A stretch of DNA of 64,000 nt from Cephalotus follicularis (lineage: Eukaryota; Streptophyta; Magnoliopsida; Oxalidales; Cephalotaceae). Below the pieces are notes generated by a model. The model was given only the letters and a program-made list of their open reading frames with translations. It did no database searches and was not told the DNA's origin. This document shows positions 2,372 through 52,077 of the stretch, one piece after another. Position numbers and translations under genes: made by a program. Each line of letters starts with the position of its first letter. The stretch's first letter is position 1. The DNA is taken from NCBI GenBank assembly GCA_001972305.1, contig BDDD01001605.1, positions 163,599-227,598 on the forward strand, in the 5' to 3' direction.

Positions 2372-3380
2372 ACAGGCCGGGTAAGAGAGATTCTCAAAGA
2401 GCTTGGCAACTCTGGTGTGAGCTTAAGAACGCCGGGGGTAGTAATCAAGCTCGGCTGGTCGGGGCTCTTTCCCTCTTAGATGGAAGCAAGGCAGAACTAG
2501 ACTGTCAGCCAGATGTGGACCCACCTTTTTTAGAGTAACTTAAGGGTTTGTAACTTCTCCTTATTTTCTCTTTAAGTTAATTTTTGCTCTTCTTTTGATC
2601 TTGAGTTTTCTTCTCCAGGCTATGGGAGACGCCTACTTCTTGCTTGGGAGAGCCAAGGATGACTATGATCTGTTTGAGCAACTCCAAACTAACAATGCCG
2701 AGCTCAAGAGGTCATCCGACAAGGCCCGGGCCCAGCTGGAGGTGGTGCTCGGGGCTGAAGAGTCTGTCATGGTAGAGAAGAGGCAGGTCCTTAAGGAGTT
2801 GGCAGTGGAGAAGAGGGAAAGGGAGGTAGTCATTCATAGCAATATCAAGCTTCAGGATAAGCTGAAGGCTTATGAAGAAAAAGTCTCCAAGTTTCATGAG
2901 CTGGAGGCTGCTCGGACTAAGGTAGCGGTGGACAGGGCCCTTATGGACTTCAATGCCTCCTCGGAGTTTCAGGATGCTCTGACTAAGGCTGTGGATGACT
3001 TTAGGGCTTCTCAAAGTTTTGAAGATGAGGTCCTTAAGGAGTCCGCGGTCCTTTACCGTAGGGGCTTCTACACATGTCGCAACCTAGTTGCTCGCCACTC
3101 TGAGGTTCCTTCGGACGACATCGTTTGCCGCCCGGCCATGAGCAAGTTTGATTTCTTTCCTGATGGGGTAGATGTTAAGGAAGCTGAAGCTCTCCTCACC
3201 TTCTAGGAACAAAACCGTCAAGGTCAGGAGACAGATGAAGTGCAAGTGACAGAGCACTCCACTGCTATTGTTGCAGACTCTGGGTCAGCCTCCGATGTTG
3301 TTTTGAGCCCTATTCCTCTGGACTCTCAGATGCCCGAGCCTTCTGATGTACATAACATCCCTTCAGGGGATAAGACTTAG
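2372..3380 (+). pseudogene. Antisense gene of left Tat element, 3' part
   Basis: This is the 3' portion of a Tat antisense gene of the family called 'putative gypsy type transposon' (Pfam Transposase_28-like). The end of exon 2 starts at 2372, where the gene is cut by another repeat. A pyrimidine-rich tract ending in CAG at 2618 is the acceptor, and exon 3 begins GCTATGGGAGAC at 2619. Exon 3 encodes a coiled coil, then the conserved block VLYRRGFYTCRNLVARH (compare EYYCRGFYTCKNWV and REYYTCRNMVE in the other two copies), then an acidic tail. An in-frame TAG at 3204-3206 interrupts the tail, which continues to TAG at 3378-3380. The ending NIPSGDKT resembles DIPSGDEAYD in the right-hand copy. 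Function is unknown. The conservation suggests a protein that was once functional. Confidence 0.7.
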
Positions 3381-14118: not shown

Positions 14119-15439
14119 TGTCTTTTATTTTCTTACTAATATTACATTTTAGAACAAAGGGTTTCTATATATGGAAATGGATAGTCAATTCAATACTGGA
14201 GGATGAGCAAAAAGGTTGTGTATACGTGGGAGTGATAAGATGTCTTCATACATATATAGTAAAGAACACCAAATTACAACAAAATACATATGGGCAATGT
14301 GGTGATGAAGGATACAATTCGGTGATGCCAGTGCTTGCGTAAGCTCTGGTGCAGAAAAACCAAAAACAAAAACCGTCAATGTCATGACTGGTATCATACG
14401 ATGTGAAGAATTAGGTGATGATTTACATAATCCCAAGAGACTCACGTGTAATTTGATATAACTGGTACACTAAGTTTGTTTTTGACATATATATACAACT
14501 CGACATAATTTCTAAATAGTGTCACAAAACCAAAAAAAATGAAAAAAATTATATAGATTTAGGACCTAATAACAATGCATGCAACTCTGATGTATAACAC
14601 CAATAGACGCGCATATTGTTATTGCTAAAAGTTTTGAATGAGGCTTATAATGAAAAAGAGAAAGGGGGCGGTTATGTTGTTTAATAGATAAATAATATAT
14701 ACAACATAAAATGCAATGACTTTCTTATATAAAAAAATACATCAATAATCATAAAATAGATGTGATATAGGACCTGATAACTCATAAGTATCATACGATA
14801 TAACTTTATATGAACGTAAATATTTTTAATTATTTCGTTTTTATATAACAGTCTGAACCGTTATAACTAGATATGAGAAAAAACTGACGTAATTGTTAAA
14901 ATTATTATATGATAGTTAAATAATCTCAATTCATTTCAAAATTGATATGTATGACCTACACATATAAATTATTAAATAGAACGATAAGATTTATAAAATA
15001 TAACTATTACGCATATCGTTTTTAGGTAATTCAACACTGAAGACTGATTCACCATATAAGATGATATAATACATTCATTTTTCTTAATTAATGTTTCACT
15101 ATACTTTATGGGAGATCAAGAGGTGTCAACCACGATTCTTTGAAACGTGTCAGTTTATAAAAAAAAAATACTCCCTTTGTCTCGTATTAAGAGTTTCATT
15201 GATAAATAAATAATATTTTAGATAAGCAATTAAAAATATTGACTTTCAGTTAAAATTTCATTCTAAACCTCTTTTAATATAAATAGTTGTTAAGCGAAAA
15301 AATGCACTTTTTAACTCAATATAAGGATAAAATTAATATTTTATGATAAGTTATTGAATTATTTTTCATATGAGATTATTAACATGAGATATCTTTAATA
15401 TTGTGTTTGAGAGTTTTTAAATGGAAAAAAACAAGATTA
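14119..15439. other. Upstream flank of the left monooxygenase copy and AT-rich unique DNA
   Basis: The first about 225 bp resemble 62550-62760 upstream of the intact copy, including shared 'aaattac(a/g)acaaaatacat' and 'ggtgatgccagtgc' stretches, so the duplication included the promoter. The rest to 15439 is AT-rich with no coding signal recognised. Confidence 0.6.
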
Positions 15440-15444
15440 ATACT
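15440..15444. other. Target-site duplication ATACT (left)
   Basis: Five bases directly before the terminal LTR copy. The identical ATACT follows the other end at 20433-20437. Confidence 0.8.
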
Positions 15445-16315
15445 TATTGATATAGAAATTCTTCCCACAATAGTACCCCACGTGTAAGGGCTTGATTTGT
15501 TTAGGGAAACGCTACTTGATGCTCCGAGGTGAAAGTAGAGGGTTGTAAGTGTTTTCCCTGCACAGAAGAGCAAACACGTTGAAGGTCCAGGAGGATGTTC
15601 TCCCGGGGACACTCCGACGCTCAAGTTAGATCTTTTTACAGAGAGAACTAGGTTCTTTTGGGAGTAAAAATGACTGACCTTTGTTCTGATTGTTGAACTA
15701 GTATTTATAGTGTAGGAGTGTAACTGTCTGAGCGTGAAGTGCAGAGGTGATAGCTGTCCCCTAAGGAAATGCCGAGGATATCGGGATTTCCCTTATCTCC
15801 ACCTGATTTGTCGCTGCTTTCCTTGCTGGTAGTTGACTGTATCTTATCTTCCATATTTGGTAGAGGTAAATCCCTGAAAAGTAGGCTGGTTTTGTGGCCC
15901 TATCCCGCCGAGGGCGAGGAAGGGTAGAATCTCTTGGTATTTATCCACTTCAAGGTCTTCAAGTTCCATGGCTTCTCTTAAGGCTGACGCCTGATACAGT
16001 AGGTCCTCTGCCAATCTGCCGAGGAAGGTATCTGATATAGTGCAGTTGAGGGGGAAAACCTTTGGCTTGGTCCTCGGCACCAAAGTTTGAAAAGAGGTCC
16101 TCGGCACTTTTGCTGAGGAGGATGGATCCTAAAACACCACTAGTGGGGAGTTCCTCGGCACTGAAGCCGAGGATGATGTCTGTCTACTTCTCCTTCCAGG
16201 GCTTGATAAGCCTCCTCTGACCAGTATCCGTGCTGACCTCAAGACCCTTGGACACTTGGCTTTGTCTGTGGATGACACGTGTCATTCTTGGTATAATTTA
16301 ATTTTTTCCATATCA
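15445..16315 (-). repeat. Left LTR of the inverted-LTR element (871 bp, full)
   Basis: The LTR runs from TATTGATATAG (expected TGTTGATA with one change) to CCATATCA. A CACGTGT box near the outer end and the palindrome ATGACACGTGTCAT at 16272-16285 match the Tat LTR pattern. A TATA-like box on the minus strand (ctataaatac) is near 15705. The open frame 15844-16107 is repeated in the right copy only because the LTR is. Confidence 0.85.
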
Positions 16316-16331
16316 TATGCCCCCCTGGTCC
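16316..16331 (-). other. Polypurine tract
   Basis: On the minus strand a purine-rich ACCAGGGGGGCATA run abuts the LTR start TGATATGG. This marks the left LTR as the 3' LTR of a minus-strand Tat element. Confidence 0.6.
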
Positions 16332-16714
16332 TTCTTCTCTGACCGTGGTCAGAGGAGGAGGAACAGAGTTGAGAGTATTGACCCGGGCCAAACTCTTGGG
16401 AACTTTACAAAGGCTTTTCCATGTGAAAGAACTGAGGTCCAATAGTGTGGCTTTTAGGGATCTTCTGGCACAAAAACAATCTCATCTTGGCAGAGGATTA
16501 AAGCTGGCCTATGCCTGGGTCCTTCTCTGCTAACGGGCTTCGTGTCACGAGCCCAAATCATTTGCATTTAAGTAGCGTATTGAACACAACTTACACGTGG
16601 CATAAACAGAGCATTTCCCGCCTCTGTCCCTTCGTCTCCTGCGTCTGATTTGACGGTTCACTCCTCAACCGTTGGATCTATGCGAGGTGGAGGGCCAGGA
16701 TCCAAGCAATGGGC

Positions 16715-16723
16715 CTATAAAAG
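16715..16723 (+). promoter_or_regulatory. TATA box of the antisense gene
   Basis: CTATAAAAG lies about 210 bp before the start codon, followed by a CT-rich leader, as in plant promoters. The right element has a TTTAAATA at a similar place (about 49135). Confidence 0.55.
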
Positions 16724-16931
16724 GATTCCTACTTCACTAAGCAAACCTTTTACTCCTTCAAACTCTCTTCTTTGCATTGTCGTTGTGAGCTCCTGAGATT
16801 TACATTGCCCTCAACCTTCATCTCCCTGCCATTCTCTCATCAAGGTCTTTGGTAAGTTGCCAGTTTTTTTGTAGCTCTAAGTCGAATCTGAGTCTTCCTT
16901 AGCTTCTTCTCTTTTTTTTTTGTCCAAATAG

Positions 16932-19221
16932 ATGGCCAGAACTAAACAGACGGCTAGGCCTTCTCCTCCCTTAGAAGTCGAACCCCTAGCCATGGTGGTT
17001 CCCACCGTCGAAAGTCCCATTTCCTCTGAAGGTAGCCTGGGGGCTGCGGTGGGTGGACCTGCTGTTCCCGTTACCGAGGCTGACACCCCTGCCCCAGATT
17101 GCTTTGGTGTCAGTACTCTTTCTCGCGATGAGGTGCTAGGACTTTCTCGCAAATACAATTTCCATGCTGGGTTGAGGTTTAGTCTCCCCTCGGATCCTCG
17201 GCTGGTTACCGAGAGTAGGGAGGGTCACTTCGCTGTCTTTGAAGGAGTGCTCTCTCATGGTTTGAGGGTCCCGGTGCCCTCTTTCGCTCTCTCGGTCTTG
17301 GAGACATTTCATCTCCACCCTTCTCTTCTCCAACCTCAATCTTGGAAGTTCATCATCGGCTTCTTAGTTAGGTGTCTAGAGTCCGAGGTGACCGCGACAG
17401 TAGGTCTATTCAAAGAATTTCATGTCATTTCGTCCTCGCCAGGAAAGCGTGGCTATTTCTTCAAGTCCCGCCCTGGTGTGAAAAAACTTCTTTTGAACCC
17501 TACTAAATCCATTAAGAACTGGAGGAGGAGATACTTCCTCATAAAAAATTTCGAGGGGTTCACCCCCCCTGCCTGGTGTGACTCTATGGAAACTACACTC
17601 CTTAACAGGAGATCCCCTCTAACATCGGCAGAGAACGTGGACTTTGGTAAACTTCTGCGCTTGGAGTCCGAGGAGGTCAACTCCACTGTGGTTGAGGATC
17701 GTCTGCTCCGAGTTGGGCTGAGTGTAGTTCCCATCCGAGGATCATACTCAGCAGAGGTCGAGGACACCTCAGGGGGTGGGGGATCCCCAGACAAATCCAT
17801 GCCCCAAGAGATGGGGGAAAACTGTATAAAGCTTTCGTCTCCTCCAGTTTTTTGCCTTCGTATATCTTCTGTTGTCTTACTGTTTATTGTCATGTTGACT
17901 TTCTTACCTCTTTTTCGTGTAGCAATGGCTTCTCGGCGAGGATTTGATGCTCTCTTTGGTGCTACCAAGATCACCAAGCCTTCCTCTGTTGAAGCAGACA
18001 AGCAGAAGGCTGCCGCGGAAGCAGCCAAGCAAAAAGAGAAAGATGCTGCCGAGGGGGCTAGGCAGAGGGCAAAGGCCGCCGCCGAGGGGGCCAAGCAAAT
18101 GAAGAAGGCTACAGTGGCTGCAAAGCAGAAAGGAGCCAAGCATCCTGCTGGAGGGCGTTCCTCTGGTGGTCCTTCTCATCCCCCAAGAAAAAAGGGGAAG
18201 TATGTGTCCGAGGTCGAGGTAGAGTATGCTCTCGGCAGGACCTCTAACAACCTCATCATCCTGCCTCCTCCTCGGGACGTGGAGAAGATGATCGAAGGAC
18301 TGGAGGGGGTTGGGAATGGGTCCTCCAGCTTGGACACGCACGGGGTGCCATTCGCTCTCAGCTCCCTGTGCCTCTTCCCTGACGAACTGAAGGAGAGGAA
18401 GGACTGGACCAATAAGGACCTTATCCATAACTCCCTGCAGAGCCATTTTGAGGTAAAGGGAGATCCTCTTCTTGTGTACTTTACATTCTTATGTGCTTTC
18501 TATTCTCATTCGTGTGTCTTGTTTGCAGGCTCTAAATGATCATCACCTCTTGGTCGAGAATTTCTCGATCATCTTGGAGAGGTATGACAAGGCACGGGAG
18601 GAGCTGATGGTAGAGATGGAGACCTCTGGCATGGCCAAGGCTCAGCTCGAGGAAGTCCTTAAGGCCCAAGAGTCAACCGTGGAGGAGAGGAACACAACTG
18701 TCTTGGAGAGGGATCAACTGGCGAAGGATCTCTCCAAGGTCGGCGACCAGTACCGGGTGCTGCTGAGGAAGCACGAAGACTCCGTCAAGGAGCAGGAGAA
18801 GAAGCGGGCTAAGGCGGTGGAGAATGCCCTGACGAAATTTATGTCCTCGGACAAATTCCAGAGCTTGATGGAGGCCTCCGTAGAGGATTACAAAGCCTCA
18901 AAAGCCTTTGCTGACGAGGTCTTCAAGGAATCCGCCGAGTACTACTGTCGGGGGTTCTACACTTGTAAGAACTGGGTTAAAGCTCTGCATCCGGAGGTTC
19001 CCTTCGATGAGGTCACCTATTGCTCAGCTGCCAAGGCTTTTGACTACTATCCTGATGGATATGAAGCCGAGGAGGTGAGGGCCGAGGAAGCCTTGGAAGG
19101 AAGAGCTGGCCTAGGGGCCGTGGAAGAGGAAGGGGAAATCCTGCCTGCTTCTGAAGCCGTTGTCAGCCAAGGAAACGGCTGGAAGAGATGGGTCAGATGC
19201 AGCAGTCGTTCCACTGCCTGA
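16932..19221 (+). CDS. Antisense gene of Tat elements, spliced, uninterrupted (704 aa)
   Basis: Exons are 16932-17823, 17923-18452 and 18529-19221. The introns have GT/AG ends (gtataaag...cgtgtag; gtaaaggg...ttgcag) in phase 1 and phase 0. Joined they give 2115 nt without a stop. Residues 1-10 read MARTKQTARP. About 90-250 is the conserved domain of the 'putative gypsy type transposon' family (Transposase_28-like), with FAVFEGVLSHGLRVPVPSFA and GLFKEFHVISSSPGKRG. The region about 315-390 is Ala/Lys-rich and probably helical. PPRKKGK near 425 could be a nuclear signal. Exon 3 is a coiled coil, then the RGFYTCKNWV block. The Pro-rich tail seen in other copies is in another frame, so a small indel near 19180 probably shortened this end. 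Function is unknown. Its domains and predicted nuclear signal suggest a nuclear protein, not a particle protein. Confidence 0.75.
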
Positions 19222-19431
19222 CCCTGAGTTGGCCTTGGCTTCACTGGCTCTCTCCTCGGATCTCGTCGCCCCTTAACCTCCTCAGACTGGGCCTTTTGTT
19301 CCTCCTCCTCCAGAGGATGAACCTTCTCTTGATGCTCCTCCCGTAGCTTAGTTTTTGTAGGCTAGCTTTTTTCTTCTTTTTGCATTGTAATAGTTTTCCT
19401 TTTGGTGAACTTGTAATCTTTACAATCTATA

Positions 19432-19437
19432 AATAAA
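19432..19437 (+). promoter_or_regulatory. AATAAA poly(A) signal
   Basis: AATAAA lies about 210 bp after the used stop, and about 70 bp after the stop expected if the frame were not shifted. It is conserved in position with the other two copies. Confidence 0.55.
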
Positions 19438-19591
19438 GAGACTTTTTTGCACTCTTGGATCTCTGTCTTTATTATTTTTTTATTTTTTGGATTGTGAGCC
19501 TGATGTATTTGTACTTGGCATGTATGTTCACAATTTCCTTAGGAATTTTGCCTCCACTTGGACCTCTGATTTCTTGTAGAAGTAGACACTA

Positions 19592-20432
19592 ATGACACGT
19601 GTCATCCACAGACATAGCCAAGTGTCCAAGGATCTTGAGGTCAACACGGATACTGGTCAGAGGATGCTTATCAAGCCCTGTAAGGAGAAGTAGACAGACA
19701 TCATCCTCGGCTTCAGTGCCGAGGAACTCCCCACTAGTGGTGTTTTAGGATCCATCCTCCTCGGCAAAAGTGCCGAGGACCTCTTTTCAAACTTTGGTGC
19801 CGAGGACCAAGCCAAAGGTTTTTCCCCTCAACTGCACTATATCAGATACCTTCCTCGGCAGATTGGCAGAGGACCTACTGTATCAGGCGCCAGCCTTAAG
19901 AGAAGCCATGGAACTTGAAGACCTTGAAGTGGATAAATACCAAGAGAATCTACCCTTCCTCGCCCTCAGCGGGACAGGGCCACAAAACCAGCCTACTTTT
20001 CAGGGATTTACCTCTACCAAATATGGAAGATAAGATACAGTCAACTACCAGTAAGGAAAGCAGCGACAAATCAGGTGGAGATAAGGGAAATCCCGATATC
20101 TTCGGCATTTCCTTAGGGGACAGCTATCACCTCCGCACTTCACGCTCAGACAGTTACACTCCTACACTATAAATACTAGTTCAACAATCAGAACAAAGGT
20201 CAGCCATTTTTACTCCCAAAAGAACCTAGTTCTCTCTGTAAAAAGATCTAACTTGAGCGTCGGAGTGTCCCCGGGAGAACATCCTCGTGGACCTTCAACG
20301 TGTTTGCTCTTCTGTGCAGGAAAAACACTTACAACCCTCTACTTTCACCTCGGAGCATCAAGTAGCATTTCCCCAAACAAATCAAGCCCTTACACGTGGG
20401 GTACTGTTGTGGGAAGAATTTTTGTATCAACA
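19592..20432 (+). repeat. Right, inverted LTR copy (841 bp, lacks the inner 30 bp)
   Basis: The reverse complement of 15445-16285, with scattered substitutions. It starts at the palindrome ATGACACGTGTCAT (19592-19605) and ends TATCAACA. Upstream of the palindrome (gaagtagacacta) there is no further similarity to the LTR. A TATA-like ctataaata is at 20166. Confidence 0.85.
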
Positions 20433-20437
20433 ATACT
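20433..20437. other. Target-site duplication ATACT (right)
   Basis: Identical to 15440-15444. Confidence 0.8.
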
Positions 20438-20993
20438 TAAAAAAATAAAAGAAAAGATATGATAAGATAATTTTTAATTTTTTTTGTTAGGATGTTTAAG
20501 AGAAAAAAAGAAAAGACATGTCATTGTTTATGTTTGTTTAGATCAAAATAATGAAATGAAAATTTTAAAATAAAATTAAGAAATGGACATTTTAAAAATC
20601 TTTATAATTAAGGGTATGCTAGGAATAAATGTTTTTAATAATATTGAAAATACCCTATCTCGCCCAATCTTTCAAAACTGAGATGACAAAAAAGTAAATA
20701 AACAAATTATCCTTCCTTATCACCTCAAGTCTCTCCAACTCTTTCCAAAAAAAAAAAAAAAAGAATTCAAACAAGAATGCGGTGGATATCTATTATTCAC
20801 TCTTTCTTTTCCTCTTAATTCTTTGAATCCAAACAAACACTAAATGCGAAGATGAACTCTGTGAGATGAAAGGTTCATTAATCATAAATATGACCTGATG
20901 CTTTCGAAAAGTGGAAAAGATAAGGTTCATTCCTCTTGAACAACATGGAATTAATTAAAAAAAGAGTAACGTTATTAATCAGTGGTATCACAA

Positions 20994-27517: not shown

Positions 27518-30058
27518 TGTTACACCCCGTTTCTCGAGAGACAGTCATTAAAGCGGTAAAGGCAAATAACATAAAGTACAGCTCATGCAGAAACCATAAA
27601 ACTTGAACTTTTTCAAGGAGCATCAGTTGCGGAAGCATAACAAAATCATAAGCTGTAAACTCGTAACGTGCGTCCCATACCGCACGCTATCCAAATATAA
27701 GTCATTATAGTTAAAAGCCCATAAAACGAAGCGTGAATTACAGTACAAGATTAAAATCCATCAGTAACAAAACCATAACAACGGTACATCAGTCCTTTAA
27801 CCAAAACCAGGTTTATTACAAGACAGGAGAATAAGCAAAATCAAGAACATAACAACTTGATCTTCGTCCATGTCAGTCCAACAGTCCACTACATCAATCT
27901 GTAAAGTAGGAGGTTAGCCCTTGTCCTCACTCGGCTAAGTCATAAGAGCAGCTCGGGATCAACATTAAATGCATGTCATGTAATGTATGCATAAACGATG
28001 CAGTGTAGGAAAACCAGTTCATATATATAGGAGAAATATATATTTTAACAGTACAGTAAAATAACAGTGAGTACATATATAAGAAAATATATGTATGCAA
28101 GACCAGTACAGTAGTAACCCGGCCAGGGCTACATCAACAAACACAAGAGTGTCCAAGAAGGACCAACAGGCGGTACAGGATGTCCACACAGGACTACAAT
28201 AGGCAGGATGTCCACATAGGACCACAATAGGCAGTATGTGTAGCGCCGCCAACTCCTGGACCCACGCTACACTCCCACACCGGCCCCTACATCAGGCAAC
28301 CGAGCGAGGCAACAGTACAGGACAGTGAGTTACCCAGCCATACTCCTGGCCCCTAGGTCAACCCTCCACTAGTCGGCGCTGACAGTCTCCGCCATGCAAC
28401 TAGTGGCTCAAGCACAAACACATAGCAATTCACAGAGCAAACAGTGAATTCAAGCAGAAACAGTGCAGTAAACAGTAATGATCGTTTAGATCGACAACAG
28501 GCAAGTTATTTCCAAAATGTTTCCAAAAGTGACAACATTTGAAATATTGCATTTTCAGTAGAAAATACCATTAAACAGTTTCAGTAGTGTAAATTGTTTA
28601 GCAGTTCGTGGGAAAATGCGTTATTTAACCAATACACATTTTCATACTCAAAATAGTACATTTCGAGTTCACATATGCATTTCTAAATATCAAAACTTTA
28701 GAAATCATAAACAATTCACAAACAGTACACAAATAGGCAGTAAGCAGGGTATATGCAATGCATCAAAATGCTCTAATGCATCCTCAGCGAAATCGGGATC
28801 GTCGGGTATCAAAACGGTAAAATCGTCCAAACAGAACCCTAAAGCGTCGGCGTTTATTACTCAGGCGTCGACGCTTATGTGTCAGGGCGTCGATCTCTCT
28901 TCCTTTGAACGTCGGCGTTTAAGCGCATTCTAATATATAATACGCAGTTCATAGAGCAAAGCGTCGACGGTCATTACTTAGGCGTCGACGGTTTAAAATA
29001 GGGGTCGTCTTCTACCTCTCGACATGGCTAACCAGTGACATTTCCAAGCATAATACATGCATTCCAGCAGGTTATAAGCACAGAAAACGGCCATGCGACA
29101 TCATGTGACACACCCAGTACAAGATAGAATCATTTCAGTGACTAAAAATGGATCATTAAACCATGAATTTCATGCAAGAACATCACTGAACAAACATTAA
29201 GCATTGAACATGAAACTACAATTATGGCTTCCCCTACCTCTGGCCTCAAGTTAGAAGCCAAAAGTCCACCTCTTTTAGTATTCCACGAAGTCACTTGAGT
29301 CCCCAGGTACGGCTTAGATGCTCCCTGGTTCGCCCTAGCAGCTGGTGTGCAAGCTCCAAGCTTCCTTGCTCAACAATGGTGGTTAAGTCCCTCTCTCAAG
29401 TTCTCTTGCTCTCTTTTACCACTCACAGAGTCTCTATCAATTCTCTGGTTCTCTGTAACAGAAAGGAGGGTGAGAGGAGTAGGTATTTTATGCCAAACGT
29501 TTTTGTTTCTTCTGCTAAAACCCACCAGATCAACTCCTCCCCTTCATGCAGACCAGGTGTAACAGGTGTCATTCTCTTCCTCTTCTCAAGCCATGCACTG
29601 AAGGATTGTCCCTCTGTCCCATGCCCTGTTGTTGCAGGTATGTCTGGCAACAAGAGGCATGCACGCCACGTCCTTAAACGTCTGCCAAGACGCCTAAAAG
29701 AAGGCCAGAAACCACCTCCCTGTGACCAGTTCATCTGCTGTCATGAATGTGCAGAACACGCCGCAAAGCGTCGACAGTTACATACAAGCGTCGACGCTTA
29801 TGTGTTGTATTTAAACGCGCGTTTTAACGGCTTAAGCGTCGATGCTCCAAGTCTAGGCGTCAACGCTTTAACCTTAAAACTGTGCCGTTTTACCAAAACA
29901 CACATTTAACATTCCCCTCACAATTGGATTCCAATTCCTTCATCATTAGTGTTTGGGAAACATCATCAAATTCGAAAATTACATCCTTTATTAATTCCAC
30001 AATTCAAAAGTACAAATACATTGTGAAATTACAATACAAGAAAATCTCGGGCGTTACA
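27518..30058 (-). repeat. 3' LTR of the nested chromovirus (2541 bp)
   Basis: Plus-strand ends are TGTTACACCCCG and GGGCGTTACA. It contains GCGTCGACGC palindromes at 28865-28874 and 29788-29797, with near copies at 28961-28970 and 28982-28991. The 204-codon open frame at 29295-29909 is in both LTRs because they are copies of each other. It resembles no family. Confidence 0.9.
28841..28991. repeat. GCGTCGACGC palindrome cluster, left LTR
   Basis: One perfect copy (28865-28874), two with a final G (28961-28970 and 28982-28991), and degenerate copies at 28844 and 28886. A second small cluster is at 29767-29870, with a perfect copy at 29788-29797. Confidence 0.8.
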
Positions 30059-31504
30059 TCCACCCCTCCTTCAAGGAATTTCGTCCCCGAAATTAAAACA
30101 AATCTAGAACAATTGCGGGTAGCGTTCTCGGATGTCCTCCTCACGCTCCCAAGTTGCTTCATCTGGTCGGTGGAACTGCCATTGAACCTTGACCATGGAG
30201 ATGGTTTGGTTCCTCAGAATCTGCGTCTTCCTATCAAGAATCCGCACAGAAAACTCCTCACAAGATAAATCATCCTGTACCGGAATAGTATCATGATCCA
30301 GGACATGTGACGGGTCCGGAATATATCTCCTCAGCATGGAAATATGGAAGACGTCGAGTACGTTTGACAGTGCGGGAGGTAAAGCAAGCTGGTAGGCGAC
30401 CTCTCCGACTCTCTCCAAAATCTCGAAAGGACCAATGTAGCGAGAAGCTAATTTGCCCTTTCTCCCAAACCTTTGCACGCCCTTCCATGGTGAAACCTTC
30501 AAGAACACATGATCACCCACACTGAAGGTTAAAGGCCTTCTCTTGACACTGTCCGCAAAGCTCTTCTGCCGGCTCTGAGCAGCAAGCAGCTTCTTCTTGA
30601 TCATCCTGATCTTTTCTGAAGTTTCCTCCACTAACTCAGTCCCGAGTAAAGGTCGCTCCTCGACCTCATCCCAACACACAGGAGATCGGCAAACTGTGCC
30701 GTTTTACCAAAACACACATTTAACATTCCCCTCACAATTGGATTCCAATTCCTTCATCATTAGTGTTTGGGAAACATCATCAAATTCGAAAATTACATCC
30801 TTTATTAATTCCACAATTCAAAAGTACAAATACATTGTGAAATTACAATACAAGAAAATCTCGGGCGTTACATCCACCCCTCCTTCAAGGAATTTCGTCC
30901 CCGAAATTAAAACAAATCTAGAACAATTGCGGGTAGCGTTCTCGGATGTCCTCCTCACGCTCCCAAGTTGCTTCATCTGGTCGGTGGAACTGCCATTGAA
31001 CCTTGACCATGGAGATGGTTTGGTTCCTCAGAATCTGCGTCTTCCTATCAAGAATCCGCACAGACAACTCCTCACAAGATAAATCATCCTGTACCGGAAT
31101 AGTATCATGATCCAGGACATGTGACGGGTCCGGAATATATCTCCTCAGCATGGAAATATGGAAGACGTCGAGTACGTTTGACAGTGCGGGAGGTAAAGCA
31201 AGCTGGTAGGCGACCTCTCCGACTCTCTCCAAAATCTCGAAAGGACCAATGTAGCGAGAAGCTAATTTGCCCTTTCTCCCAAACCTTTGCACGCCCTTCC
31301 ATGGTGAAACCTTCAAGAACACATGATCACCCACACTGAAGGTTAAAGGCCTTCTCTTGACACTGTCCGCAAAGCTCTTCTGCCGGCTCTGAGCAGCAAG
31401 CAGCTTCTTCTTGATCATCCTGATCTTTTCTGAAGTTTCCTCCACTAACTCAGTCCCGAGTAAAGGTCGCTCCTCGACCTCATCCCAACACACAGGAGAT
31501 CGGC
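29877..31504. repeat. 814-bp tandem duplication spanning LTR end and pol end
   Basis: 29877-30690 is repeated at 30691-31504 with a constant offset of 814 bp and almost no differences (one is at 30251 against 31065). Each unit holds the last about 180 bp of the LTR, the polypurine tract and the last about 190 codons of pol. So the 3' end of pol occurs twice and a piece of LTR lies inside pol. Confidence 0.9.
30059..30690 (-). pseudogene. Duplicated 3' end of chromovirus pol
   Basis: The extra copy of the integrase C-terminus and chromodomain-like segment, ending EEDIRERYPQLF, produced by the 814-bp duplication. Its first coding residues (CWDEVEERPLLGTELVEETS) duplicate those at about 31493. 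It has no upstream pol of its own. Confidence 0.85.
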
Positions 31505-34500
31505 ACTTCCTCCCATACAGTGCCTCAAACGGTGCCATGTCGATACTGGAGTGATAGCTATTATTGTAAAAGAACTCTATCAGAGGAATGTGATCCTCCC
31601 AAGTACCAGCAAAATCAATAATGCAAGCCCGTAGCATATCCTCCAAGGTCTGGATGGTACGCTCAGACTGCCCATCGGTCTGAGGGTGGAAGGCAGTACT
31701 CAGGTTCAGCTTCGTCCCGAAAGCTGTCTGAAACCTCTTCCAGAAGTTGGAAGTGAAGATAGCATCTCTCTCACATACGATGCTGACTGGAACTCTGTGT
31801 AGCCTCACTATTTCTTTCATATACAACTGAGCCAGCTTGCTCGCAGAATCAGTAACATGTGTAGGCAGAAAGTGCGCTGATTTAGTGAGTCTGTCCACGA
31901 CAACCCACACGGCGTTGTGACGATTCCGAGTCAAAGGAAAACCAGAAACAAAATCAATCGTAACATGTTCTCACTTCCACTCTAGAATTGGCAAAGGTTG
32001 TAGCAAACCTGCCGGTCTCTGGTGCTCGGCCTTAACTGTCTGGCAAGTCAAACACCTTGCCACATACTCGGCGATCTCCTGCTTCATGCCGGGCCACCAG
32101 TAACACTTCTTCATGTCTTGATACATTTTAGTGCTACCAGGATAAATACTGTACAGAGATTTATAAGCCCCGCGAAGTAGTTCATCCTTCAACCGTGGTT
32201 CATTCGAAAGACACACGCGTCCCCGATATCTCAGAATACCATCAGCATGCACTCGAAAATCAGATTCTGAGTCCAGGTTCTCTCGGATCCGTTGCAACTC
32301 CGGATCGTGCGGTTGTGCATCCCTGATGAGATCCAGTAACACAGGCTGTACTCGCATATCGACTAGAAAGATCCCTGGTGACTGATTAAACGGAGACCAC
32401 TCTTGGAAGTCTTCCAACATCTTCCATTGTGACACCATCGCACTAGCAAGCATAGCCTTGCGGCTCAAGGCATCAGCGACTACATTCGCTTTCCCCGGGT
32501 GATACTGGACACTGCAATCGTAGTCATTAAAGAATTCTACCCACCTGCGCTGTCTTATGTTCAGTGTGTCCTGACAAAACAGGTACCTCAAACTCTTGTG
32601 ATCAGTAAAGATCTCAAACTGTGCCCCATAAAGATAGTGTCTCCACTTCTGAAGGGCGAAGACAATAGCCGCAAGCTCAAGGTCATGAGTCGGGTAGTTT
32701 TCTTCATACGGCTTTAGCTTCCTCGAGGCATATGCAATCACTCCGCCTCGCTACATCAACACACAGCCCAAGCCCTTACCCGATGCATCACTGTAGACTG
32801 CAAAGCCCTCATTACCCTCTGGTAATGCCAAGATAGGAGCGAAAACCAACCGATCCTTCAGTTCACGGAAACTAGCTTCACAATCTTCATCCCAGACAAA
32901 CAAGGTTTTCTTCTGGGTCAATCTAGTCAAGGGCTCGGCTATCCTTGAAAAGTTCTGGATAAACCTCATGTAATACCCTGTTAATCCAAGGAAATTGCGT
33001 ACCTCCGTCACGTTCTTCGGTTGTGGCCAGTCCCGCACCACCTCAGTCTTTGACGGATCCACCGTCAAACCTGCTCCAGATACGATGTGGCCGAGAAAGA
33101 TCACATGATTAAGCCAGAACTCACACTTTCTGAACTTTGCGTACAACCGATGCTCTCTAAGGACTTGCAATACTAGTTTCAGGTGATGAGTGTGCTCCTC
33201 CTCACTCTTCAAATATACCAGTATATCATCAATGAACACCACGACAAACTGGTCCAAGTATGGCCGGAATACATCATTCATCAATGACATGAAAGCTGCC
33301 GGTGCATTGGTAACACCAAACGGCATCACCAAGAACTCGTAATGACCATACCGTGTTCGGAAGGCAGTCTTCTCAATGTCTCCTTCCCTTACTCTCAGCT
33401 GGTGATAACCCGATCTCAAATCGAGCTTGGAAAACACCCTTGATCCCTGTAACTGATCAAACAAATCCTCAATGTGGGGTAAAGGATACTTGTTCTTGAT
33501 AGTCGCCTTGTTCAACATTCTGTAGTCGATGCAGAGCCTCATCGACCCATCCTTCTTCTTGACAAACAATACAGGTGCACCCCATAGAGAAACACTGGGT
33601 CTTACAAAACCCTTGTCAATCAGGTCTTGTAACTGTAGCTTCAGCTCTCGCAACTCAGCAGGAGCCATCCGGTAAGGTGATTTAGAGATAGGAGCCGTTC
33701 TAGGAACAAGATCAATAACGAACTCCATACTCCTCTTTGGTGGCAAGGATCCCAAGTCATCAGGGAAAACATCCGGGAATTCACACACGATAGAAATTTC
33801 CTCCAAGCTTAAACCTTTCTCCTTCCTTCGATCAATAACATAGGCCAGATATCCCTCGCATCCCTTCTCTAGGTATCTCAAAGCACGAATAAAAGATATG
33901 ATCAGTGTCGAGAACCCTTTGTCTCCCTTGAATTGAAAGGTCGTTCCGTCGGGCAGACAAAAATCCACAGTTTTGTTGTAACAATCCATGCGAGCACGGT
34001 GTGCTGCTAGCCAATCCATCCCCAGTATAACATCGAATTCACGGATAGGCAGCACTATCAAATCTGCATACAAGGGAATGCCTGCCATAGACATCTCACA
34101 ACTCCTATATACCGAGTCATTATACATGGGAGTCCCAGTCGGTGTACTCACATCAAGTATGTATGACATGCAGTAAGGGGTAACATCTAAACAAGATGCA
34201 AAACGTGCAGATATAAAGGAATGAGATGCTCCAAAATCCATCAGTACTCTAGCAGAATAACCATATATATACAGAGTACCTCCAACAACAGAAGTCGACT
34301 CTGGAACCTCTGTTTGAGCAAGTACAAAAATTCTACCTTTTGCAATGCCCTTGCCGGTGTCCTTCCTCTGTGACGGTCCCGCAGCTGCACCGCTACTACT
34401 CCCCGGCCCTGTAGGCGCTGTAGCAGAACTCTTTGGACAATCTTTCACTAAATGACCAGGTGCCCCTCACCTCAAACACCAACCATTGAACCTCCAGCAT

Positions 34501-39232: not shown

Positions 39233-39776
39233 TGTTGATGCAGAAATCTTTCCTTCAACAGTACCCCACGTGTAAGGGCTTGATTTGTTTAGAGAAATGC
39301 TAGAATCTGTCTGAGAAAGAGTGTTGGCTGGCTGGTAATCCTTGCACAAGTAAAAGAGAAGAGTAGAAGGTCCAGGAGGTGGTTCTCCCGGGGACACTCC
39401 GACGCTCAAGTTAGCAGTTTCACAGGGAGTATTGAGGTTCTTTGAGTACTAAAATAGCCGACCTTTGTATTGACTGTGAAACTGGTATTTATAGATCTCC
39501 CAGTGACTGACGAGCGTCTAATCAGGAGTTGGTTGCCCCTAGGGGAAATGTGTCAGTGGTCCTGGCATTTCCCCTGATCTCTTCCAGATTTGGTGGCTGT
39601 GGCGGCATGCCCATCTCTAGATTATGGGGCTATGGCGGCATGCCAGTCTCCTTTCCCAAGTTGATGTGATGGTAGGCCGTGATGACAGGCCACGCGCCCA
39701 AGCCCCAGAGCGACATATGTCTTCCTCTCCTTGAGACACGTGTCCTTACGCTTAAAAAAGGTTTTTTCCCATATCA
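39233..39776 (-). repeat. 3' LTR of the right Tat element (544 bp)
   Basis: Plus-strand ends are TGTTGATGCAG and CCATATCA. It contains CCCCACGTG near the U5 end and GACACGTGTC at about 39735, as in the other Tat LTRs. Aligns throughout with 59104-59646. Confidence 0.9.
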
Positions 39777-40789
39777 TATGTGTAAGAGTAAATATTATAA
39801 AATATTATTATTGGGCTTTATAATTATTTTTCCCACTTTTGGGCTGGACCCGAAATTTATGATGTATTTAATTGGGCCTTAATGGAAAATAAGTTATGAT
39901 TTGGGCCTTAAGATAATATAATTTGTAAATATGGGCTAAAAGGAATTATGTTATTCACCTTGGGCCGGATTTATTGGTATAATTAGATTTTCGGGCCCTA
40001 TTGTGGAAAGTGTAATTTGGCCCAAGTGGTGAAAGGCTGACCCAAGCCCAATAATGGCCTGCACCCGTGAGAATCCCCTCAAGAGTTCTAGACTCTTCCA
40101 ATGGCCTATATAAAAAGATAAGGACTCTTCAGACACACTTTTTGACTATCTTCTTGCACAATTTCTCTAGAGAATTCAGGAGAGAAAGAGAGAGTGAGGA
40201 GAAGGAAACTATGTGGGTGTTGTTCAAGTGAGCCCCACGCCCCTGCTCCTCCAATTATAAATACCTCTTTCAAAGGGAGCAAGGGATTTGTGTAAGGAAT
40301 AAGAGGAGATTATCAAGGCTAAAAGTGTGTAGCAAACCCCGTTGGAAGGAAGTCCAGAATTCAGAGAGCAGGAAACGTCTCCGTTTCCAACCTTACTCTA
40401 GGTAGGTTGCTCCATGTCCGAGTGCCTACCAGCTGTGTGTTGATGTTCGTGTATGTGTTTTCCCTGCTTGCTGTTTGTGTGTGATGATGTCTTTTTGTTT
40501 GATTACTAGAATTCATAGTAGATAGAGTATATATATACACATTATTATATGAGCATACCCTGCTATGTGCAATTGGCAAGGACATGTGCCTCGCACGTGG
40601 GCGTCCCCTCTTATTTTTGCGTTCTAGCTGTACCAAACGCCATGCCCGCACGAAGACGCCATGATTCACGTTACCGTTGAGGAGTTAAACTCCCTGGTCA
40701 CACGTCCGACCGTCGCCGCATGCCGAGCTCCTCGCCGGCAAGCGCCGAAGTCTCCCTACGTCAACGACGCGCACTATACAGGCATGGAA

Positions 40790-40920
40790 TGGGCCGAGCG
40801 TGCAAACTGGCCAGGCTGACCGTGCGAACTGGCCGGGCCGAAGGTGCGAACTGGCCATGACGAGCGTGCGAAATGGTCGGGCGGAGCATGCGAACTGGCT
40901 GGGCTTGGCGTTTGAGCTGT
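40790..40920. repeat. Minisatellite, unit near GAGCGTGCGAACTGGCCGGG
   Basis: Five or six imperfect units of about 24 bp. The matching stretch in the truncated 3' LTR is 48430-48550, with individual units diverged. Confidence 0.75.
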
Positions 40921-41784
40921 CCGAGCTGAGCGCGCGACCTGCCGGGGGTGACCTGCCGAGCGCCCGGGGCTGAGCGCATGGGCAGCCGGGGAGAAAAGCC
41001 ATGGATGCCGGGCTGAGCGCATGGACTGCCAGGGCCGAACTGTTATGGGTGAGTGCCGAGCTCCATGCCCGAGCGCCAGGGGCGAGCATCCAAGCTGCTA
41101 CCATGGCAGAGCAGCCATGCCCGAGCGCCAGGGATGAGCGTTAGGCATGCCCGGGGACGAACTGTTGGAGATGCTGGGGAAGCCTTACCAGCGGCGCCAA
41201 TGCCAGGGGAGCCGTCCATAGCTCTCCCCTGCCATGTAGGCTCATGGTGATTCCTTTCCATGCAACCCAGGGATGCTCCCGAGCTGTGTGCCATCATTTC
41301 CAACCACATGAGCTTCCCCTACTGTGAGCTGAGCAAGCCTCGGGTGAATGCACTGCTCCCTGGTAGAGTTCACCAGTGTGCGCTATGGTGGGGAAGACGA
41401 ACGACGCGAGCCTACATGTCCCTTGCATGCATGAAGAGAGAAATGGTTTGGGGCTGTACATGCGTCCCCGGCACGTGAAATGCAAAGGATGCTTTGCATG
41501 CGCCATGCATGCAATCCTCTACCCTGTTGTATGCCAAACATAACTCTAAATGTATTAAGCACGCGTATGTTAATAGGCATAAGAAGGTAAATGTTGATAT
41601 GCACGTGCTGAGGCGAACCTTGTGAAAGGGAAGTGCCCTGCACAATGGTGAGCCCTGGTCTGGCCTAAGAAATGGCTTAAGGAAGCCAAAGAAAAGAAAG
41701 GAAAATAAGCAAGAGAAGGAAATAGAATTAGGAAATGAAATGTAAAAGGAACAGATTTAGTTAAATGACTCTAGGAAAATGAGC

Positions 41785-47482: not shown

Positions 47483-48972
47483 TGTAAGAGCCCTAAATAT
47501 TATAAAATATTATTATTGGGCTTTATAATTACTTTCCCACTTTTGGGCTGGACCCGAAATTTATAATGTATTTAATTGGGCCTTAATGGAAAATAAGTTA
47601 TGATTTGGGCCTTAAGATAATATAATTTGTAAATATGGGCTAAAGGAATTATGTTATTCACCTTGGGCCGGATTTATTGGTATAATTAGATTTTTGGGCC
47701 CTATTGTGAAAAGTGTAATTTGGCCCAAGTGGTGAAAGGCTGACCCAAGCCTAATAATGGCCTGCACCCGTGAGAATCCCCTCAAGAGTTCTAGACTCTT
47801 CCAATGGCCTATATAAAAAGATAAGGACCCTTCAGACACACTTTTTGACTATCTTCTTGCACAATTTCTCTAGAGAATTCGGGAGAGAAAGAGAGAGTGA
47901 GGAGAAGGAAACTATGTGGGTGCTGTTCAAGTGAGCCCCACGCCCCTGCTCCTCCAATTATAAATACCTCTTTCAAAGGGAGCAAGGGATTTGTGTAAGG
48001 AATAAGAGGAGATTAGCAAGGCTAAAAGTGTGTAGCAAACCCCGTTGGAAGGAAGTCCAGAATTCTGAGAGGAGGAAACGTCTCCGTTTCCAACCTTACT
48101 CCAGGTAGGTTACTCCATGTCTGAGTGCCTACCAGCTGTGTGTTGATGTTCGTGTATGTGTTTTCCCTGCTTGCTGTTTGTGTGTGATGATGTCTTTTTG
48201 TTTGCTTACTAGAATGCATAGTAGATAGAGTATATATATACACATTATTATATGAGCATACCCTGCTATGTGCAATTGGCAAGGACATGTGCCTCGCACG
48301 TGGGCGTCCCCTCTTATTTTTGCATTCTAGCTGCACCAAACGCCATGCCCGCACGAAGACGCCATGATTCACGTTACCGTTGAGGAGTTAAACTCCCTGG
48401 TCTTCGGCGCGCACTGTACAGGCATGGAATGGGCAGAGCGTGCAAACTGGCCGGGCTGACCGTGCGAACTGGCCAGGCCGAGGGTGCGAACTGGCCGTGC
48501 CGAGCGTGCGAAATGGTCGGGCGGAGCATGCGAACTGGCTGGGCTGGGCGTGTGAGCTGTCCGAGCTGAGCGCGACCTACCGGGGGTAACCTACCGAGCG
48601 CCCGGGGCCGAGCGCATGGGCAGCTGGGGAGAAATGCCATGGATGCCGGGCTGATCGCATGGACTGCCAGGGCCGAACTGCTATGGGTGAGTGCCGAGCT
48701 CCACGCCCGAGCGCCAGGGGCGAGCATCCAAGCTGCTACCATGGCAGAGCAGCCATGTCCGAGCGCCAGGGATGAGCGCTAGGCATGCCCGGGGACGAAC
48801 TGTTGGAGATGCTGGGGAAGCCTTACCAGCGGCGCCAATGCCAGGGGAGCCGTCCATAGCTCTCCCATGCCATGTAGGCTCATGGTGATTCCTTTCCATG
48901 CAACCCAGGGATGCTCCCGAGCTGTGCGCCATCATTACCAACCACCTGAGCTTCCCTTACTGTGAGCTGAGC
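47483..48972 (+). repeat. 3' LTR of the second chromovirus, truncated (1490 bp)
   Basis: Begins TGTAAGAGCCC after a purine run (aaggatgggagga). It follows the 5' LTR up to ...GTGAGCTGAGC and then stops. Relative to the 5' LTR it also lacks about 80 bp near 48402. The short repeat GAGCTTCC at the break suggests a deletion by illegitimate recombination that also removed Tat sequence. Confidence 0.85.
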
Positions 48973-49338: not shown

Positions 49339-52077
49339 ATGGCCAGAACGAAGCATACCAAGAGGTTTGTCAGGAGTTCAGAAGTGGTAGCCTGAGCGTC
49401 CACAGGGGTCATTGTCGCTGTTTGTCCCCTCAACATGAAGGTGGAGATGGAGGCCTCTGCCGCTGGGAACCCCAACGTTGAAGCTACGGGGGCCGGAGTT
49501 CAGGTTTTCCGGGCCAATTTTGATGAGACCACCATGCGCCCTCACAAACTGGTGCAATTGGTTAAGGAGTACTCTATTCTTGGTGGCCTGGACTTGGAGA
49601 TCCCAACTGACCCCAGGTCAGTCACAGTGAACCAACCCGAGCACTTTGTGGTGTTCCAAGATGCTTTGGAGCATGGGTTGAGACTATCGCTGCCGCTGTT
49701 CGCAGTTACCGTCCTCGGGCACTACCGGATCCATCCTTCAATGCTGTAAGCTCAGTCCTGGGGGTTCATCTTTGGGTTCATCGTACGCTGTCTTGAGGCG
49801 GATGCAGTGCCCACCCTCAGGCTGTTCAAAGAATTCCACATCGTGGCTCCCTCCCCAAAGAAGCGCGGCTTTCACTTTAAGTCACGCATGGGTCACCCCA
49901 AGCTGCTGGCGGAGAACACCAAGACGGTCAAGCGCTGGAGGGAGAAGTATTTCCTGGTCAAGAACCTCCCCGGCTTCCTCCCCTATCCTTGGACAGACAC
50001 ACTGGATACCGGGCTCCTGAACCAGAGGTCTTTTCTGACCAGAGAAGAGACCGCAGACCTGAGGAGGCTCTCGGCCCTTGCACCCGAGGATGTGCTGAAG
50101 GTGGTGTCCGAGGACCGCCTACGACGGCATGGGCTTAGCATGTCCATAGGGCGTAGAGCTAGCCTAGAGCTGGAGGCGAAGGAGGTACCAACAAGGATCC
50201 AGAGAGAGAGGGACCAGGGTGGTCATGGTGGAGCTGCTTCCTTGGCGGCCACACAAGGAGATAGCCGTACAAAGCCTTTTCTTGGGCTACCCCTTTTTTT
50301 TGAGTTAGTGACTAACTTTTTTTTAATGCCTTACCAACTGCTTCTTTGCTTGTCTCTGCAGAGATGGCCCGCCAAGAGTCAGCCATGGACTTGATCAGGG
50401 CCGACCGTGAACAGGCTCGTGCTACCGACCCAGGGGTACAGAGGAGAGACGCTGAGAAAAGGCAGAGGGCCTTGGAGAAGCCGCGGAAGGCGGCGGAGAG
50501 GAGGGCGGCCAGGTAGGTTGAGGGGAGGGACAGGCTTGACAAGCTGCCCCGGGTCATATCTGAGGAGGCCAGGGAGGCCAGTGATGCAGAGGCCAGGGAG
50601 ACCAGGGAGGTAGGGGCTGCGGAGGCCAGGGCTGTGGCGGCCATGGCTGCCAAGGCCAGGGAGGCCCGAGCTCCGGAGGCCCGGGCTGCTGAGGAGGAGC
50701 GCGCTGCTGTGGAGGAGTGTGCTGCTGAGGCCAGGGAGGCCGCGAAGGCTAGGGAGGCTAGAGCAGTGGAAGCCAGGGTGCCTATGACTGACCCTGAGCT
50801 CGGGCGTCCCTCAAAGAGGCAGCGGTTGGAGAAGGGGAAGGTTTCCCAGGGCGAATCCGTCGAGGGGCGCCTCTGTGACCCCCACCATCCTTACCCCGCT
50901 GCAAAGCTTGCACAGGTAAGGGATATCCTGGGAGAGCTTGGTCATGCCGGCGTTTGTCTGAAGATGCCCGGGGTCACCACGGAGCTGGACAGAGTAGGCA
51001 CGTTCCCCTACGAGCTGGGGCTAAGGGAGGAGTGGTCGACAGGGCAGCTTTGGACCACCCTCTTCCAGTGCTGCCAGTGGGTAAGAACACTTGCCCTGAC
51101 TTTCTTTTTTGAACTTTTTCTAGCTCTGGACTGACGTTGTTTTCTTTTTTCCCCAGGCCATGGTCAATTCCCATCTTCTGATGGACAGGACTGACCAGGA
51201 GACCAGCCTAAACGAGCAGCTCGGGGTTGAAAATGCTGAGCTGACCAGGTCTATGGCCACGGCCTGTGCTCAGCTGGATGAAGTTCTGGGTGCCCAAGAG
51301 GGCCTGACGGCTGAGAAGGACAAAGTTGTGGAGGAGGCCAGGAGGGAGAGGGGCCTCAAGATCGTTGCCATGGAGTGGACAAATGAACTTGAGGGCAGGC
51401 TGGAGGCTTTACAAGACCAGTTAGCCAGGTCCAAGGAGCTTGGGGATGCCCGGGCCAAAGCCGTTGCAGAGAGGGCAGTCCTGGACTTCAAGGCCTCAGT
51501 AGAGTTTCGAGACGCCATGGATCAGGCCGTGGACCTCTACAAGGCTTCTAAGGATTTCAACCGTGAGGTTTTGAAGAAGTCTTCGGCCAACTTTCGTCGG
51601 GAGTACTATACCTGTCGAAACATGGTCGAGTGCTTTCCGGATCTCCCGTTGGACTCCTTTGTCTGTGGCCCTTCCGTGGCAGAGTATGACTTCATCCCAG
51701 AGGGCGTTGAAGAGGCCGAGGATGAAGCCTTCAGAGCCTTTGATGAAGAGCAAAGTCATGCTAAGAACCCCTGTTGGTCTCCCAACGGCCATGACCTGGT
51801 TCCCTTCACTGCACCTGCTGAGGACGGCAACCTTGGGGCCTTTGCTGTCGAGCCTCTCTCTCACATCATTGCTGAGGAGCCTGCCCCAACGCGGATGACC
51901 GAGGATGATCCGGCTCCTTCTCCTAGTCCCTGCTTCGATGACCCTCCTCCTCCTCCTCCTCTGTCGGAAGAAGAAGCTCCTCCTCCTCCTCCATCCGTAG
52001 TAGACATCCCTTCGGGGGATGAGGCTTATGATAGATTTTTTTGTTTTTGCCTTGTAATTTTTCTTTCCTCTCAATAA
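49339..52077 (+). pseudogene. Antisense gene of the right Tat element, three exons, with stops
   Basis: Exons are about 49339-50266, 50362-51080 and 51157-52077. Introns (gtacaaag...ctctgcag; gtaagaac...tccccag) sit at the same places and in the same phases (1 and 0) as in the copy at 16932. The N-terminus reads MARTKHTKRFVR, similar to MARTKQTARP there. Conserved parts are FVVFQDALEHGLRLSLPLFA and RLFKEFHIVAPSPKKRG in the Transposase_28-like domain, an Ala/Arg/Glu-rich helical region, a likely nuclear signal GRPSKRQRLEKGK (about 50806), a long coiled coil, REYYTCRNMVE, and a Pro-rich acidic tail with PPPPPPLSEEEAPPPPP. Stops at 49393 (TGA), 49747 (TAA) and about 50515 (TAG) inactivate it. 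Function is unknown. Confidence 0.75.

Follow-up and report, generated by a model that had tools for sequence, protein, structure and literature searches.

The stretch analysed here, referred to below as the window, comprises 64 kb of the Cephalotus follicularis genome (C1605:163599-227598, in an assembly of 1.577 Gb and 9746 contigs) and contains no N. Positions 15440 to 20437 of the window hold two long terminal repeats (LTRs) that are inverted relative to each other and enclose a segment of 3.28 kb. The left LTR (15445 to 16315, minus strand, 871 bp) is complete and corresponds to the 3' LTR of a minus-strand element. Its outer terminus is U5 and reads TATTGATA, one substitution away from TGTTGATA, and its inner end is U3, reading CCATATCA. 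The second LTR (19592 to 20432, plus strand, 841 bp) likewise has its U5 end outward (TATCAACA) and lacks the first ~30 bp of U3. Both outer termini of the element are U5. The inverted arms, at 15444 to 16286 and 19591 to 20433, are 97.27% identical over 843 bp, and a second inverted-repeat comparison matched them as 850-bp arms. The U5-out inverted layout is confirmed as genuine. The initial annotation had placed both LTRs correctly, as reverse complements with the same terminus at both outer ends, and had overlooked the truncation of the right one by ~30 bp of U3.

On its U3 side the left LTR adjoins positions 16316 to 16330, where the minus strand reads GACCAGGGGGGCATA. We take this stretch to be the polypurine tract, and the same sequence or a variant lies beside U3 in canonical copies of the family. 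The internal segment (16316 to 19591, minus strand) is collinear with the 3' part of canonical copies and is 96.3% identical to a copy on contig C244 (L018). Taken from 15440 to 19591, the collinearity with the C244 copy covers 4154 aligned bases at 96.5% identity, and ten more stretches align to at least 2.7 kb of the internal part (L026, L019, L030, L028, L035, L015, L013, L011, L009 and L037). Inward of the polypurine tract, adjoining the 3' LTR, an open reading frame (ORF) of 535 residues (16932 to 18539) runs on the plus strand, antisense to the minus-strand element. It matches the Pfam family PF04195 (Transposase_28, "putative gypsy type transposon"), and its relatives among 7994 scored candidates are three C. 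follicularis proteins with 57-67% identity. The second antisense ORF, of 248 residues (18475 to 19221, plus strand), has tblastn relatives at 51154 to 51705 and 2712 to 3167 and no Pfam match at an E value of 0.001. An antisense ORF between pol and the 3' LTR is common in the Tat lineage, and a related one occupies the same place within another element of the window (39233 to 59646). The 15440-20437 element contains no pol, and neither GGCGCCAAC nor GGTGCCAAC, looked for as exact primer-binding-site matches, occurs inside it on either strand.

The internal segment ends at a chimeric junction (19591/19592), where internal sequence ending in GTAGACACTA is joined to U3 at ATGACACGTGTCAT with a 1-bp microhomology (A). 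Past 19591 the C244 copy continues with CTCCAAAAG, whereas the window enters U3, and no processed U3 terminus is present at the junction. Judged by this collinearity, the element is a chimera of the part of a minus-strand copy that carries the 3' LTR, the polypurine tract and the antisense ORFs with a second LTR. A perfect palindrome of 14 bp (19592 to 19605) lies at the junction. Its sole other copy in the element is found at 16272 to 16285, and the two are the only perfect palindromes of at least 12 bp in the element, with 0.05 of that length expected per shuffled LTR. The palindrome was noted as a join point after the fact and may be a coincidence, because reverse transcriptase would be expected to pause before a hairpin, yet here it would have copied through.

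When up to three mismatches are allowed, the chimeric junction is found at one place in the 1.577-Gb assembly, as compared to 69 places for the normal continuation, which served as a control. Amplification of the inverted layout was rejected on these counts. The initial annotation had suggested that what it called a Tat derivative now amounts to a transposon with long inverted repeats. That suggestion is not supported: the search for further copies located this junction sequence once, no movement is seen, and the likeness to an inverted-repeat transposon is one of layout only. The inverted layout does not appear to have spread, and the normal cycle should not copy the element, because host DNA directly adjoins both of its U5 ends and its interior lacks an exact match to either of two primer-binding-site variants. 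It looks like a single dead-end accident, well documented.

The LTR query returned 7165 first-look candidates in the assembly, the 40 best of which were scored, and 1943 matches to a 46-base pattern of the U5 end were found with three mismatches allowed. The best 40 LTR matches comprise 14 single matches and 13 same-contig pairs, 12 of them direct and one inverted, the latter being the 15440-20437 element. Every end was inspected in 12 relatives with two LTRs on one contig; a thirteenth pair, on C2646, had no U3 match and was left out of this inspection. The LTRs are direct in all 12 relatives, and wherever host DNA borders both sides, as in 11 of them, the element ends in U5 at one side and in U3 at the other. 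Exact 5-bp target duplications flank seven of the 12, and three others agree at four of five bases (C1660, C708 and C557). The flank match of C450 is out of register, and the low LTR of C7455 is an inner LTR with no host flank on one side. Read in the orientation of the window's left LTR, the family LTR has TGTTGATA at its U5 end and CATATCA at its U3 end, or variants of these. The inner U5 of canonical copies adjoins GGCGCCAAC or a variant, the primer-binding side, in 12 of 12 cases, and the inner U3 adjoins TATGCCCCCCTGGTCC or a variant, the polypurine tract. Compared with 30 LTR copies from 18 contigs, a set made of the best matches to the left arm and hence biased towards it, the arms show 92.6-97.9% identity to 29 and 90% to the remaining one, C2646b. 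By LTR sequence and termini the 15440-20437 element belongs to this family, with arm termini as in canonical copies, and it departs from the family in having neither direct LTRs nor one U5 and one U3 outer end.

The element at 39233 to 59646 is a related canonical copy; its LTRs are direct (93%), and AATAG flanks it at each end. An apparent nested gypsy-type element lies directly inside its low LTR, with repeats at 39781 to 41334 and 47483 to 48972. Elsewhere in the window, a direct tandem duplication of 815 bp with 99.9% identity (29877 to 31505) may be recent or may be an assembly effect. On C7455 (L024 and L025; 10383 to 26110), one LTR is located between a polypurine tract and a primer-binding site, and two normal internal stretches run in the same direction, 8.2 kb apart. 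This locus resembles a complex of three direct LTRs. In L009, L015, L019, L030 and L018, and at position 15446 of the window, the outer U5 terminus has TA, TC or TT in place of TG, a change of its second base. Such substitutions affect six of 18 integrated outer U5 ends versus none of 14 beside the primer-binding site (Fisher 0.024), in a small, similarity-biased sample whose 18 ends include both of the 15440-20437 element.

The inverted unit is flanked by ATACT at both sides, at 15440 to 15444 next to the left LTR and at 20433 to 20437 next to the right LTR. The flank match extends to seven bases (ATACTTA, at 15440 to 15446 and 20433 to 20439) because the substituted left LTR end reads TA. 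We read it as the 5-bp target duplication of this LTR family plus a terminal substitution, as among the relatives; alternatively, it may be a 7-bp duplication with a left LTR that is two bases shorter. At the composition of the flanks, two 5-mers would match by chance with a probability of 0.0034.

The right flank (20447 to 20835, plus strand) is part of a dispersed AT-rich repeat, other copies of which continue into the left flank (~15392 to 15439). Its best matches among the best 40 of 90 candidates are 70-74% identical. With the left flank as sole query, the best 40 of 1148 candidates gave no second copy except of a dispersed repeat at ~14790 to 15103. For an empty-site test, the two flanks were joined with one ATACT and aligned to repeat copies, and the alignment across the joining point was compared with 200 versions in which the left side was shuffled. 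The 11 copies tested, out of 43 other matches, were our own choice, mostly from the higher-ranking ones; copies starting far from the joining point (among them C2228 and C7184) and many short matches were left out. Eight of the 11 (L046, L047, L048, L049, L053, L054, L055 and L056) beat all 200 shuffles, and with L046, L047 and L048 the joined flanks align in one piece over the joining point. L052 is marginal, its score being reached by one of the 200 shuffles, and L050 and L051 gave no alignment to the left side of the joined flanks. ATACT is present once and exactly in L054 and L056, and as a close variant in the remaining supporting copies; L048 is not clean here and reads ATCACT. In most supporting copies the alignment is broken by small gaps, a few bases long, within an A-rich stretch close to the joining point. 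L054 equals the joined flanks over 30 bases, AAGATTAATACTTAAAAAAATAAAAGAAAA. Because repeat copies align across the joined flanks, the host repeat was interrupted one time, with duplication of ATACT. Comparison with these paralogous empty sites shows that the target duplication is genuine.

The two arms differ at 23 of 842 bp (18 transitions and five transversions, K80 0.028). Six of the 23 differences are private to one arm, and at the other 17 the rarer state is also found in other copies; one of the transversions is common to the left arm and a single solo LTR, C1761, only. This solo LTR (L017, ~404840 to 405710, with GTTAT on both sides) is the closest relative found for the left arm (97.9%). 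Private differences were compared with those of 12 same-element LTR pairs after omission of the outermost alignment columns, which leaves 22 arm differences. The arms have six private differences of 22 (27%) versus 25-58% in these pairs, 11 of the 12 being higher, and the C1402 pair behaves like the arms. Rare states common to both members number zero for the arms versus 0-12 for the pairs, again with 11 of the 12 higher. This comparison, which draws on a biased sample, leans towards an origin of the arms from two different templates, as two RNAs would give. The arms are also closer to each other than the LTRs of any of the 12 same-element pairs (93.9-96.3%), and none of the 423 LTR pairs from different loci, a count that excludes the two arms, reaches 97.27%. 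This identity proves little on a common birth, however, because the left arm is even more similar to C1761 (97.86%) than to the right arm. The LTR tree, from which matches aligned over less than 780 bp (C2646a among them) were excluded, does not separate a one-template from a two-template origin of the arms. Their divergence is an upper bound on age only.

We propose, with a probability of about 0.86, that the element results from one aberrant Ty3/gypsy-type integration, in which the 3' ends of two cDNAs formed a chimera with U5 at either outer end, and integrase inserted this product concertedly, in a single event that duplicated a short target. The initial annotation had likewise argued for integration as one unit with two U5-type ends, and the paralogous empty sites and the short duplication support this. 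The same empty sites speak strongly against the separate insertions that it had named as the contrary outcome. Counted against our proposal are the three of 11 repeat copies (L050, L051 and L052) that gave no empty-site support. Only two places leave a U5 end free, the 3' LTR of a cDNA and the 5' end of a minus strand; a 5' LTR instead has the primer-binding site next to its U5, as also observed in the 12 relatives here. Since both LTRs of the element have an exposed U5, the right one would derive from the 3' end of a different cDNA, or of a further copy of the same one. Two incomplete cDNAs, or two copies of one, would most likely have been joined 3' to 3'. One nascent minus strand would have stopped ~30 bp short of the U3 end and the other ~3.3 kb past the polypurine tract, and reverse transcriptase may have jumped 3'-to-3' between them with pairing of one base. 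Each minus strand has its U5/primer end at the 5' side, and copying one from the other would yield a U5-to-U5 molecule. Integrase would then have used both U5 ends in a concerted manner, duplicating the short target. In this respect the element behaves as a normal product of integrase whose substrate was abnormal.

Alternatively, end joining by the cell could have made the chimera from the 3' ends of two broken double-stranded cDNAs, with the same single integration to follow, so that this possibility, to which we give somewhat less than an even chance, overlaps with the odds stated above. A 1-bp microhomology is usual for such joins, both cDNA fragments would bear an integrase-ready U5 end, and a break at the edge of the 14-bp palindrome is conceivable. 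End joining requires that a single cell contained two broken cDNAs ahead of integration, and no sequence feature contradicts it. The two routes would leave the same letters in the DNA; we favour the reverse-transcriptase jump between nascent minus strands, at about even odds with end joining.

An assembly artefact, from a fold-back read or a misjoined scaffold, is improbable. The division of the assembly into 9746 contigs speaks for it, but a fold-back would predict near-identical arms rather than 23 differences, and the arms join two flanks that are neighbours in a repeat, in a window free of N. Slighter still is the chance of two independent insertions in opposite orientation that were fused by deletion of the intervening DNA. 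Young LTRs of this family are all alike and the arms have no rare states in common, so that a separate birth is possible, and were it not for the empty sites, the arm divergence and the closeness of C1761 would also fit two insertions. Against this, the ATACT match would have to be due to chance, the outer flanks are neighbouring sequence of one repeat, and L054 matches over its 30 bp with no base lost or gained except the second ATACT. A canonical insertion rearranged later in place, by inversion, gene conversion or LTR recombination, would require a cut falling exactly at the outer LTR/target border, whereas on the right side the border is exact to the base and is followed by a flank that matches the empty sites. 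Because the flanks joined with one ATACT match uninterrupted repeat copies, both two insertions and a later inversion are very unlikely, and we set them aside on the empty sites.

In favour of rearrangement, two opposed LTRs 1.7 kb apart do occur on C86 (269000 to 273400; L021). They belong to another subfamily (83%) and stand head to head with their U3 sides inward. Inspected by eye, this pair adjoins sequence resembling a primer-binding site at one end and pol-like sequence at the opposite end, its flanks being element sequence and not host DNA. It is probably a rearrangement and was not counted as a second inverted insertion.

Autointegration, in which a processed LTR end would have attacked the element's own DNA and the inverted form then integrated, is hardly credible: deletion or inversion circles are named as its products (PMC2644782), which gives it inversion forms in common with our element, but the products known so far are circles made by integrase in which a processed LTR end is joined to internal sequence, whereas we find a chromosomal insertion with no LTR end at the junction. 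We rejected it on the missing first ~30 bp of U3 there.

The proposed single integration can be compared with several known systems. Retroviral integrases join two U5 ends concertedly in vitro, likewise using two identical U5 ends in one reaction; those assays employ short donor DNAs, whereas the 15440-20437 element is a natural insertion in a plant genome. Fold-back DNA transposons have the same layout, their long inverted terminal repeats being flanked by a short target duplication. Unlike them, the element has LTR U5 ends, its first ORF matches a retrotransposon family, and its junction is present once, rather than in several copies with different duplications. Complexes of direct LTRs with shared duplications arise by abnormal template switching (Sabot and Schulman 2007, PMC1950507). 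As proposed here, a chimeric cDNA from abnormal reverse transcription integrates as a unit with 5-bp duplications; those complexes have three direct LTRs and two internal regions, whereas our element has a pair of inverted LTRs, a single partial internal region and U5 at both ends, and shares with them the common duplication. Among the titles and abstract openings listed, a scope outside which most subscription journals lie, we found no U5-U5 or inverted-LTR chromosomal insertion.

The element provides a natural, base-exact record of an apparent concerted two-U5 integration in a plant. It suggests that integrase is able to use two identical ends in the living plant, and that the U3 end is dispensable, a truncated and fused cDNA still being integrable. 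Both LTR promoters would face outward into host DNA. Annotation that relies on direct repeats would overlook such an element, its LTRs being inverted, and a search aimed at U5-U5 and U3-U3 insertions that share a duplication would give the rate of these reverse-transcription or cDNA-repair errors. More tentatively, and on balance doubtfully, plant Ty3/gypsy integrases may accept two U5 ends in vivo while 3'-to-3' joining of incomplete minus strands recurs, feeding a hidden class of inverted-LTR insertions. If so, the 15440-20437 element would be the first clean U5-U5 example, complete with its empty site, of a class concealed from programs that seek direct repeats.
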